Of a DNA stretch of 56,185 nucleotides, positions 33,695 to 47,490 are shown one piece after another. The notes beneath the pieces were generated by a model that worked only from the letters and a program-made list of their open reading frames with translations, did not search any database and had not been told where the DNA came from. Both the position numbers and the translations under genes were made by a program. The DNA comes from Chelatococcus sambhunathii (GTDB lineage Bacteria > Pseudomonadota > Alphaproteobacteria > Rhizobiales > Beijerinckiaceae): positions 1 through 56,185 of the forward strand of contig NZ_LIOL01000002.1 in assembly GCF_001418005.1 (NCBI RefSeq), written 5' to 3'. The first letter of the stretch is position 1. Each line of letters begins with the position of its first letter.

Positions 33695-34657
33695 GTGAGC
33701 CGCAACGATTCGATCCGCCCGCGTCCGACGGACAACGCCTTTCTCGGCCCGCTCGACGGCGGCTCGCTCGAGCCGACCTATTCGGGGGCGCTGTCCTTCA
33801 TGCGCCGGCGCTACAGCCGCGATCTGTCGGCGGCGGACGTCGTCGTGTGGGGCGTGCCGTTCGATTGCGCCACGTCCAACCGGCCAGGGGCGCGCTTCGG
33901 GCCGCAGGCGCTGCGCCGCGCCTCCGCGATCTTCGACGGCGATCCGCAGTTCCCCTCCGGGCTCGATCCCTTCGAGGCGCTCACGGTGATCGACTGGGGC
34001 GACTGCTCGTTCGACTATCGCCGGCTCGACCAGGTGCACGGCCTCGTCGAGGCGCAGGCGGCGGAGATCGTCGCGGCCGGATGCCATCTCGTGACGCTCG
34101 GCGGCGATCATTCCATCACCCTGCCGCTGCTGCGCGCCCATGTGGCCGAGCACGGGCCGCTGGCGCTGGTGCAGTTCGACGCCCACCAGGACACCTGGGA
34201 GGACGACGGCGAGGGCACCTCGCACGGCACCTTCGTCACCCGCGCCGAGATGGAGGGGCTGATCGACTGCTCGCGCTCCATCCAGATCGGCATCCGCACC
34301 GTGGCGCCGGACGATTTCGGCATCGCCATCGTCGATGCCTACGAGGCGCGCGGGCTCGGCGTCGCCGGCATCGCCCAGCGCATCCGCGAGCGGGTGGGCG
34401 AGGGGCCGGCCTATCTGTCGTTCGACATCGACGCGCTCGATCCCGCCTTCGCGCCGGGCACGGGCACCCCGGTCGCCGGCGGCCTTTCGAGCGCCGAGGC
34501 GCTGATGGCGCTGTGGAGCCTGCGCGACATCGACTGGCGCGGCATGGACCTCGTCGAGGTGGCGCCGCCCTACGACCATGCCGACATCACCGCGATCGCC
34601 GGTGCGACGGTGGTGCAGCACTACCTGCAGATCCTCGCCGAGCGGGCGCGGGGGTGA
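33695..34657 (+). CDS. speB: Agmatinase / ureohydrolase family protein
   Basis: The product has 320 residues. Ureohydrolases use two Mn ions; the ligands are visible as His139 (GGDHS), Asp162, His164 and Asp166 (FDAHQDTW) and Asp244, Asp246 (SFDIDALDP). Agmatinase converts agmatine to putrescine and urea, but proteins of this branch can also be guanidinobutyrase or similar. GTG at 33695 follows AGGAG with good spacing and starts VSRNDSIRPRPTDNAFLG. It is 326 bases upstream of argC, so the two share an arginine-related neighbourhood. Confidence 0.85.
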   Translation: MSRNDSIRPRPTDNAFLGPLDGGSLEPTYSGALSFMRRRYSRDLSAADVVVWGVPFDCATSNRPGARFGPQALRRASAIFDGDPQFPSGLDPFEALTVIDWGDCSFDYRRLDQVHGLVEAQAAEIVAAGCHLVTLGGDHSITLPLLRAHVAEHGPLALVQFDAHQDTWEDDGEGTSHGTFVTRAEMEGLIDCSRSIQIGIRTVAPDDFGIAIVDAYEARGLGVAGIAQRIRERVGEGPAYLSFDIDALDPAFAPGTGTPVAGGLSSAEALMALWSLRDIDWRGMDLVEVAPPYDHADITAIAGATVVQHYLQILAERARG

Positions 34658-34787
34658 GTGTTTTCCCTCCCCCATGCGGGGGAGGATCATGACCTCGACC
34701 TTCGTGTGCGATAACCCTCCCCGCGAACGGGAGAGACTGGCCGGGTCGTCATTGACACCGGCGCCCCTTTCCCGGATAAGCGTGCCC
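34658..34787 (+). other. Intergenic DNA between speB and the argC leader (palindromic repeat)
   Basis: The first part of the 326-base speB-argC gap has no gene. CCTCCCCC (34666-34673), ATGC and GGGGGAGG (34678-34685) form a perfect 8-bp hairpin, and a related CTCCCCGCGAACGGGAG follows near 34717. The pair resembles palindromic repeats common in this order. No T-run follows, so termination for speB is doubtful. The argC promoter lies at the end of this stretch. Confidence 0.6.
34752..34780 (+). promoter_or_regulatory. Candidate argC leader promoter
   Basis: TTGACA (34752-34757) is a perfect -35 consensus, followed by a 17-base spacer and GATAAG (34775-34780). The expected transcription start at about 34787-34788 coincides with the ATG of the leader peptide, so the leader would be leaderless. 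Confidence 0.65.
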
Positions 34788-34853
34788 ATGATCACCGTCG
34801 CGCACACCACGCCGAACCGACGCCGCCGCGCCGTCCTTGCGCGCGTGCGATGA
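34788..34853 (+). CDS. Arginine-rich leader peptide (21 aa)
   Basis: The reading frame encodes [10 protein letters not shown], then four consecutive Arg codons CGA CGC CGC CGC (34818-34829), then AVLARVR and TGA. Six of 21 residues are arginine. It lies between a consensus promoter and an intrinsic terminator upstream of argC, so it looks like an attenuation leader peptide whose translation senses charged tRNA-Arg. No ribosome binding site is visible, consistent with translation from a 5'-terminal AUG. Direct proof of translation is lacking. Confidence 0.65.
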
Positions 34854-34903
34854 CGCGACCTCGCGTGTCGTGATCGGAGCCGCGCCCGCAGCGCGGCTTT
34901 TTT
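34818..34903 (+). promoter_or_regulatory. Putative arginine attenuator of argC
   Basis: Four segments can be read. Segment 1 (34824-34831, in the Arg codons) can pair with segment 2 (34839-34845). Segment 2 (34838-34845, TGCGCGCG) can instead pair with segment 3 (34881-34890) with a two-base bulge. Segment 3 (34879-34885) pairs with segment 4 (34891-34897) to form the terminator. Ribosome stalling at the Arg codons would mask segment 1 and favour the 2:3 antiterminator. Pairings were traced by eye and not scored by energy. Confidence 0.55.
34879..34903 (+). terminator. Intrinsic terminator within the argC leader
   Basis: GCCGCGC (34879-34885), loop CCGCA and GCGCGGC (34891-34897) are followed by six T. 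It stands 80 bases before the argC start, where only an attenuator or an end of speB transcripts would make sense; the leader peptide in front favours attenuation. Confidence 0.85.
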
Positions 34904-34983
34904 GTTGCAATTTCGTCCCCATCTTCTGTTACCACCGGCAAACGCTCGAAAACCGTCGCCCGGACAATCGTCAGGAGCCGTCC

Positions 34984-35961
34984 ATGAACGACACCTCGCT
35001 TCTCAATCCCGCCCGGGGCAAGGCTGCGGGTGCGCGGGCGCCGCGCGTCTTCATCGACGGTGAGGCCGGCACCACGGGCCTCGGCATCCGCGAGCGGCTC
35101 TCGGCGCTGCCGCAGATCGAGCTCAGGTCCATCGCGCCGGAGCTGCGCAAGGACGTGGAGGCGAAGAAGGCGCTGCTCGCCGATGTCGATCTCGTCGTGC
35201 TCTGCCTGCCGGACGCGGCCGCCAAGGAGACGGTGGCGCTCGTCGAGGCCCTGGGAGAGGCCGGTCCGCGCGTGCTCGATGCGAGCACCGCCCACCGGGT
35301 CGCGCCGGGCTGGGTCTACGGCTTCGCCGAGATGACGCCGGGCCAGCGCGCGGCGATCGCCGGGGCGCGCCTGGTGTCCAATCCGGGCTGCTATCCGACG
35401 GGGGCGATCGCGCTTCTGAGGCCGCTCGTCGACGCCGGACTCGTGCCGGCGGATTATCCCGTCACCATCAATGCGGTCAGCGGCTATTCCGGCGGCGGAC
35501 GCACGATGATCGAGGCCTACGAGGCGGGCACGGCGCCGTCCTTCGAGCTCTACGGCCTCGGCCTCGAGCACAAGCACCTGCCGGAGCTGCAGACCTATTG
35601 CGGCCTCTCGCGGCGGCCGATCTTCGTGCCCTCGGTCGGCAATTTCCGCCAGGGCATGCTGGTGTCGATCCCGCTGCATCTCGACACGCTGCCCGAGCGG
35701 CCGACGGGGGCCGACCTGCAGGCGGTGCTCGCCACGCGCTATGCGGTGAGCGAGCTCGTCTCGGTCGCCCGGCAGGACGATGCGAGCGTCACGGGCGGCA
35801 AGATCGAGCCCGAGGCGCTCAACGACACCGACCGGCTGGAACTCAGGGTCTATGCCAACGAGGCGCGGCGGCAGGCCGTGCTCGTCGCCCGGCTCGACAA
35901 TCTGGGCAAGGGCGCCTCCGGTGCGGCAGTGCAGAACATCCGGTTGATGCTCGGCGTCTGA
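34984..35961 (+). CDS. argC: N-acetyl-gamma-glutamyl-phosphate reductase (short type)
   Basis: The product has 325 residues. It reduces N-acetylglutamyl phosphate with NADPH in arginine biosynthesis. The nucleotide-binding start is [18 protein letters not shown], catalytic Cys136 lies in [10 protein letters not shown], and the His block is [12 protein letters not shown]. The compact C-terminus and the GEAGTTGL motif mark the type 2 enzyme. ATG at 34984 follows AGGAG. Other arg genes are not nearby, so control is probably local through the upstream leader. Confidence 0.95.
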
Positions 35962-47414: not shown

Positions 47415-47490
47415 GCGCCCATCGTCTAGCGGTCTAGGACGTCGCCCTTTCACGGCGAAAACAGGGGTTCGAGTCCCCTTGGGCGCGCCA
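47415..47490 (+). tRNA. tRNA-Glu (UUC)
   Basis: The acceptor stem GCGCCCA (47415-47421) pairs with TGGGCGC (47480-47486), followed by discriminator G and an encoded CCA. The anticodon stem TCGCC/GGCGA encloses loop CTTTCAC with anticodon TTC at 47449-47451. The T loop is GGGGTTCGAGTCCCC. It is 76 bases long with CCA and lies at the border between recJ and the CRISPR-Cas locus. Confidence 0.95.

Follow-up and report, generated by a model that had tools for sequence, protein, structure and literature searches.

How might a bacterium control its arginine synthesis when its family appears to do without the arginine repressor? A search for ArgR (PF01316) found the protein in none of 60 genomes from the family of Chelatococcus sambhunathii, whereas the same search was positive in 9 of 14 controls, eight of them over the cut-off. 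According to parts of a regulon survey (PMC5343134), ArgR is conserved in many gammaproteobacterial groups and absent in other proteobacterial classes. The stretch of DNA analysed here (56,185 nucleotides, hereafter the window) raises the question at argC, the gene for N-acetyl-gamma-glutamyl-phosphate reductase (34984..35961, + strand; NCBIfam TIGR01851, 400.6 bits). A reading made from the letters of the window had proposed that a leader ahead of argC attenuates transcription in response to arginine. Relatives of this leader support the proposal, and the same layout also occurs before a second arginine gene, argD. We conclude that the element is very probably a ribosome-mediated transcription attenuator that senses arginine via charged tRNA-Arg.

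The features of the locus all lie on the + strand. A promoter-like TTGACA (34752-34757) is separated by a 17-nt spacer from GATAAG (34775-34780), and an ATG follows 7 nt further on; a strict sigma-70 scan around the leader did not call this site. The ATG (34788) opens a frame of 21 codons, predicted to be leaderless and conserved in relatives, that closes with TGA at 34851-34853 (34788..34853). Its putative regulatory codons, CGA CGC CGC CGC at 34818..34829, mark the beginning of segment 1. The coordinates of this run of four Arg codons hold as they had first been given, as do the two more Arg codons near the end of the frame, at 34842 and 34848. Segment 2 (34838..34849), assigned from folds and permutation as the candidate 5' arm of an antiterminator, overlaps the last codons of the leader. 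Past the stop, folding with a ribosome on the Arg codons yields a hairpin (34851..34876) that is the predicted tip of the antiterminator. The intrinsic terminator spans 34876..34903, with its 5' arm at 34876-34885 (segment 3), loop at 34886-34890, 3' arm at 34891-34900 (segment 4) and T tract at 34898-34903. It is present as described, although the statement that it follows the frame at once was slightly loose, since 22 nt separate the TGA from the stem; argC does start 80 nt past 34903. This is the one terminator-like site within 34300-35300, where shuffles lead to an expectation of 0.2.

The upstream neighbour of the leader is an agmatinase gene that ends at 34657 (NCBIfam). Between it and the leader promoter, at 34660-34745, lie two short palindromic stretches of the CCCTCCCC type; they are absent from a locus of the same genus (L004) that has the leader. 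At the other end of the leader, the last codon CGA and the TGA stop overlap an ATG (cgATGA, in the window at 34848-34853), and short frames follow in some leaders. A ribosome could restart at such an overlapping ATG, but the overlap is probably incidental. Several relatives also show similar hairpins past the stop codon, as judged by eye and without statistics.

Taken by itself the window is weak evidence, and it is the relatives that decide. Dinucleotide shuffling of the leader frame produced four consecutive arginines in 157 of 5000 cases, and 4 of the 332 small ATG frames on both strands of the window also contain them. The fold of the leader RNA is barely better than that of shuffles (z -1.06), 32 of 200 of which fold as well. 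An Rfam 15 scan of the window found nothing at the leader, its sole match being a tRNA at 47415-47487, and four leader loci (L002, L184, L232 and L221) gave no Rfam 15 match up to E 0.5. The complete layout of promoter, ATG, Arg pair and terminator, by comparison, was present in 32 of 170 argC upstream regions, a total made of two sets with at least one genome in common, and in none of the 170 reverse strands or 1700 shuffles.

An ArgC match, in some cases only remote or partial, was obtained from 97 of 99 genomes in the window's family, and 90 argC upstream regions were read (30 loci including the window, and 60 stretches). Under the frame rule that we applied, an ATG had to have TTGAC 34-38 nt ahead of it and to open a reading frame 6-45 codons long, and a GC-rich terminator had to be present. 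Twenty-five of the 90 regions were positive, and 60 showed neither the leader nor an Arg-rich frame by this rule. The remaining five (L058, L061, L064, L066 and L072) have the promoter and an Arg-rich frame before argC and no canonical terminator; another mode of output or decay is possible there. At L008, about position 1395-1420 upstream of argC, the stretch GAGCCGCGCCGCGGCTCCC resembles a decayed leader terminator without promoter or frame. Among 80 named ArgC loci nine were positive, namely three from Bosea, three from Microvirga, Salinarimonas ramus (a duplicate of L023), 'Bradyrhizobium' sp. LHD-71 and one MAG. Methylobacterium, the other Bradyrhizobium, Acetobacteraceae and Comamonadaceae among these 80 loci were negative by the rule.

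Covariance models, from which the promoter was excluded, carried the search further. With model R1, built from 30 leaders and running from the ATG to the T tract, 54 of 297 genomes of the order yielded a total of 68 matches at or below E 1e-3. Sorting by eye of 41 R1 loci besides the window left 18 leaders in 17 genomes and 23 gene ends or other chance matches. Twelve of the 18 leaders come from one genus (g62 of family f20), where they precede a long type of ArgC; this was identified as TIGR01850 for L184 and shares 28-30% identity with the window ArgC in eleven BLAST-listed loci, while the twelfth locus (L178) matches the long ArgC at 57%. One genome (G364) carries two leaders, one before argC and one before argD (TIGR00707).

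Model R2, made from 35 leaders, was run on 385 genomes of the class and at 1e-5 matched nine of them. Outside the order this search gave five leaders; argC follows three of them, and the genes after the other two share 42-43% identity with ArgD. Another locus of this search (L224) is the same place as L196. In family f2, 18 of 40 genomes matched at 1e-3, of which 12 had an argC leader and six gave chance matches only, and seven of the 40 carry separate leaders before argC and argD. A search of 398 genomes of the phylum matched three at 1e-6, these being the window, a known carrier from its family and one chance match. In the window's own genome a single copy stands out (E 8e-21) above 26 weaker matches with E from 0.0018 to 4.4. 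A number of weak model matches (L222, L223, L237-L242, L250, L251, L324 and L325) were rejected by eye as a gene end with its terminator or other chance similarity. In genome G316 a typical Arg leader (MSPYAINRRRQFENPARARGR; L176:1013-1562, - strand) stands before a gene whose best match is the Rid family TIGR00004, below the cut-off of that family; this leader may have been relocated or may have acquired a new target.

Pooling both approaches gave 71 distinct alphaproteobacterial leaders, of which the frame rule contributed 33 and the models 38. The set leaves out a duplicate of L023 (L143), a leader nearly identical to L180 (L183), the five terminator-less loci named above and the re-fetched copies L174, L216, L226, L232, L243 and L323. 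By tblastn the downstream gene encodes a short ArgC in 50 cases, a long ArgC in 11, ArgD in nine and the Rid-family protein in one (L176), so that argC or argD follows 70 of the 71 leaders. All 71 carry TTGAC 35-39 nt ahead of the ATG, a property that was a selection rule for the 33 and absent from the models that found the other 38; one leader (L055) has a second TTGAC 17 nt before its ATG, and the one counted is at 35. Because sorting by eye could favour TTGAC, a count by rank is fairer. All of the 15 best matches of the order search besides the window (E 9.5e-9 or better), the five best of the class search and the 19 best of the f2 search (E 2e-6 or better) had the spacing. The distance between TTGAC and ATG predicts a transcript that starts at or next to the ATG, and the leader mRNA is thus probably leaderless.

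The frames of these leaders are rich in arginine, which accounts for 398 of 1301 in-frame codons, against 194 (14.1%) and 140 (10.2%) of 1372 in the other two frames. An Arg pair is found in 68 of the 71 and is absent from L027, L031 and L245; three consecutive arginines occur in 48, and arginine is the last residue in 65. Apart from arginine the peptides differ widely. A T run of five or more follows in 69 of the 71 leaders, the terminator having been part of the selection, and 29 distinct pairs of terminator arms are present as trimmed by script; in one case (L013) the frame runs into the terminator. The leaders are related, so that none of these counts is made up of independent cases. The conservation of Arg codons and terminator in relatives, on which the sequence-only reading had staked its proposal, is evident in this set.

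An argD leader was sought, by eye and with the promoter rule, in 11 genomes of families f1, f2 (G347), f20 and f50, and none was found there. One of the loci (L267) has Arg codons near argD without the leader layout. In ten of the loci, among them that of the window genome (L269; also L266, L268 and L270-L276), a TTGACA-like promoter followed almost directly by a GC-rich hairpin was seen by eye roughly 60-250 nt upstream of argD. The hairpin typically reads GCCGCCC...GGGCGGC and precedes a T-rich tract such as TTTGATTTT, and it had no Rfam match in L269, L271, L273 or L276. It is possibly another control element of argD.

The choice among Arg codons points to what the leader may read. At the first three positions of the Arg runs we counted CGA 79 times, CGC 60 times and CGT 43 times, and CGG not once (n=182), whereas CGG makes up 35 of 130 Arg codons elsewhere in the leaders. 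CGA is the first codon in 59 of 68 runs and the last leader codon in 61 of 71. In 26 argC genes that belong to these leader loci, counted over the initial 900 nt of each match, CGA accounts for 4 and CGG for 198 of 506 Arg codons; in the leaders of those 26 loci the figures are 60 and 8 of 144. Of the 38 model-found leaders 37 contain a CGACG, and in every one of these its first copy shares the frame of the ATG at a distance of 21 to 36 nt; in the rule-found set it does so in 29 of 30 cases. The third base of the second and third codons of the run varies between C, T and A, a pattern that speaks for codons, rather than a site in the RNA, as the object of selection.

The genome of the window has one tRNA-Arg gene for each of the anticodons ACG, CCG, CCT and TCT, all 45 tRNA places having been checked. 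The tRNA with ACG, its first base converted to inosine, decodes CGU, CGC and CGA. The attenuator is apparently tuned to a single tRNA-Arg isoacceptor. The same three codons are grouped under common tRNAs in Salmonella (PMC4046918), and the theoretical work in PMC1183508 states that experiments have confirmed the selective charging of Arg isoacceptors. The avoidance of CGG and preference for CGA in the leaders offer a natural test of the selective-charging theory in the form given there.

Alternative pairing was analysed by folding in 67 of the 71 leaders, the other four being those without an Arg pair or with the stop inside the terminator (L027, L031, L245 and L013). With a ribosome placed on the Arg run, upstream sequence captured the 5' arm of the terminator with a mean probability of 0.80, compared with 0.67 in shuffles, and 56 of the 67 leaders lay above their own shuffle mean; for a ribosome at the stop codon the value was 0.45. 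Once the 3' arm was included in the fold, the terminator itself had a mean probability of 0.95 for a ribosome at the stop codon, 0.52 for a stalled one and 0.71 without a ribosome, the last value being lower than a simple model wants. In the window, the minimum-energy fold of the full-length leader pairs 34824-34833 with 34838-34849, whereas covering the Arg codons with a ribosome leads to pairing of 34838-34848 with 34879-34890, capped by the hairpin at 34851-34876. The 1:2 and 2:3 pairings foreseen from the letters alone thus recur in the predicted folds. Segment 2 of the window overlaps the last codons before the stop at 34851 and would be masked by a ribosome that has reached it. For the window alone, 30% of shuffles attain its capture score, and the terminator wins at equilibrium even in the stalled state (0.80), so that the switch must depend on folding during transcription.

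Across the set the two arms match each other. In 46 non-redundant leaders, segment 2 pairs more strongly with the terminator arm of its own leader than with permuted ones (8/5000), a modest excess (Wilcoxon p 0.025); the same permutation gave 0/5000 for the terminator itself and 3923/5000 for a negative control. A perfect complement of six or more nucleotides was found in 29 of the 46, against 18% of shuffles; in L249, for example, the terminator arm is TGCCGCGT and segment 2 is ACGCGGCA. Within the terminator, three of seven pairs have changed on both sides. The covariation score was 0.130, with one slid control close to it at 0.115, and further pair types were unremarkable (102 of 500 shuffles). 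As regards the covarying helices that had been suggested as a check, then, terminators persist with 29 different pairs of arms, and antiterminator and terminator arms match better within than between leaders.

These features fit the following scheme. Transcription would start at or beside the ATG, and a first ribosome would translate the leader while RNA polymerase proceeds. With ample Arg-tRNA the ribosome would reach the TGA at 34851 and cover segment 2 (34838-34849), so that the terminator at 34876-34903 could form and transcription would stop. When Arg-tRNA is short, above all the ACG species that decodes CGA, CGC and CGT, a stall of the ribosome at the CGA-CGC run would be expected; segment 2 would then be free to pair with the terminator's 5' arm, and argC would be transcribed. 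Without translation, segments 1 and 2 could pair with each other, which would favour the terminator.

Might the terminator belong instead to the agmatinase gene upstream, with the Arg-rich frame a chance product of GC-rich sequence? That gene does end at 34657, and runs of four arginines are not rare in shuffles (157/5000, as above); but a promoter-like site intervenes between agmatinase and terminator, the sequence upstream differs between loci as seen by eye, and argC or argD lies downstream in 70 of 71 cases. Since the rule-found loci were fetched through ArgC, this last argument is carried by the argC and argD cases that the models found. The absence of the layout from all shuffles and reverse strands also speaks against chance, and we consider this explanation barely credible. 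Translation might otherwise be incidental to a leader RNA that works as a riboswitch or as a protein-bound attenuator, and the covarying terminator and the recurring 5-mer CGACG would agree with such a role. That 5-mer, however, keeps to the reading frame in every model-found leader holding it, the variable third bases within the run suit codons and not a binding site, and no Rfam family matched the leader in the window, L002, L184, L232 or L221. An RNA sensor of this kind is in our estimate very improbable.

A nascent peptide of the TnaC or SpeFL type, arresting the ribosome by sensing free arginine or ornithine and thereby controlling the terminator, would keep translation in play. Leader peptides can indeed arrest ribosomes on a free amino acid, as parts of the literature on TnaC describe, and the arginine that ends 65 of 71 peptides could be viewed in this light. 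An arrest peptide is nonetheless hard to reconcile with peptides that vary widely apart from arginine, and the exclusion of CGG among synonymous codons (0/182) points to decoding rather than to the peptide; we rate this possibility as unlikely.

Attenuation through charged tRNA-Arg, the reading preferred here, offers one concrete way in which many Hyphomicrobiales may regulate their arginine synthesis in the absence of ArgR. A broader proposal seems to us slightly better than an even bet: in Alphaproteobacteria that lack ArgR, a small attenuation regulon, made up of argC and, in certain lineages, of argD as well, with a separate leader for each gene, would replace the repressor and would use leaderless mRNAs to monitor how fully one tRNA-Arg isoacceptor is charged, with the rare, slow CGA codon as trigger. 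That one kind of leader precedes two unrelated arginine genes, and ArgC genes of two families, illustrates how a switch like this can extend across a pathway.

Amino-acid attenuators based on leader peptides are familiar from trp, his, leu, thr, phe and ilv genes. As far as the literature was searched, arginine is thereby added to the amino acids with classically attenuated biosynthesis genes. Searches of the open literature showed no arginine attenuator for argC or argD, and likewise no arginine leader peptide for alphaproteobacterial argC, as the sequence-only reading had supposed; an earlier mention is possible. The main text of one attenuator survey (PMC2965389) contains neither arginine nor argC, and a carA leader peptide in Pseudomonas aeruginosa is mentioned in a passage of PMC4997734.

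Among known systems, the leaders resemble the classical attenuators, as treated in part in PMC1183508, in having codons for the product amino acid in a short leader frame, mutually exclusive antiterminator and terminator, and a biosynthetic gene downstream. They differ in being directed to arginine, argC and argD, in the predicted leaderless state of the mRNA, and in their use of codons from one isoacceptor box with the rare CGA first. The rnTrpL/peTrpL system of Sinorhizobium meliloti, in the parts of PMC10117765 that concern us, is likewise an alphaproteobacterial attenuator whose RNA begins at the leader AUG; it serves tryptophan and trpE, whereas the start of our leader RNAs is predicted from promoter spacing. 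Orf34 in the Salmonella speF leader shares the pausing of ribosomes at consecutive Arg codons and a response to arginine, according to sections of PMC6386406. In that account, however, orf34 acts via Rho, RNase G and translation on ornithine decarboxylase, rather than by means of an intrinsic terminator ahead of a gene for arginine synthesis; the leaders described here stand before argC or argD and not before speF. Another alphaproteobacterial candidate, uORFC-8-2 before cysS in Rhodobacterales, combines tandem codons with an attenuation layout, but in the relevant portion of PMC8632094 the codons are for Cys, the gene encodes an aminoacyl-tRNA synthetase and the carriers belong to another taxonomic order. 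A known mechanism at a place for which we found no description, namely a classical attenuator with arginine specificity, is well supported by the comparison of these leaders.
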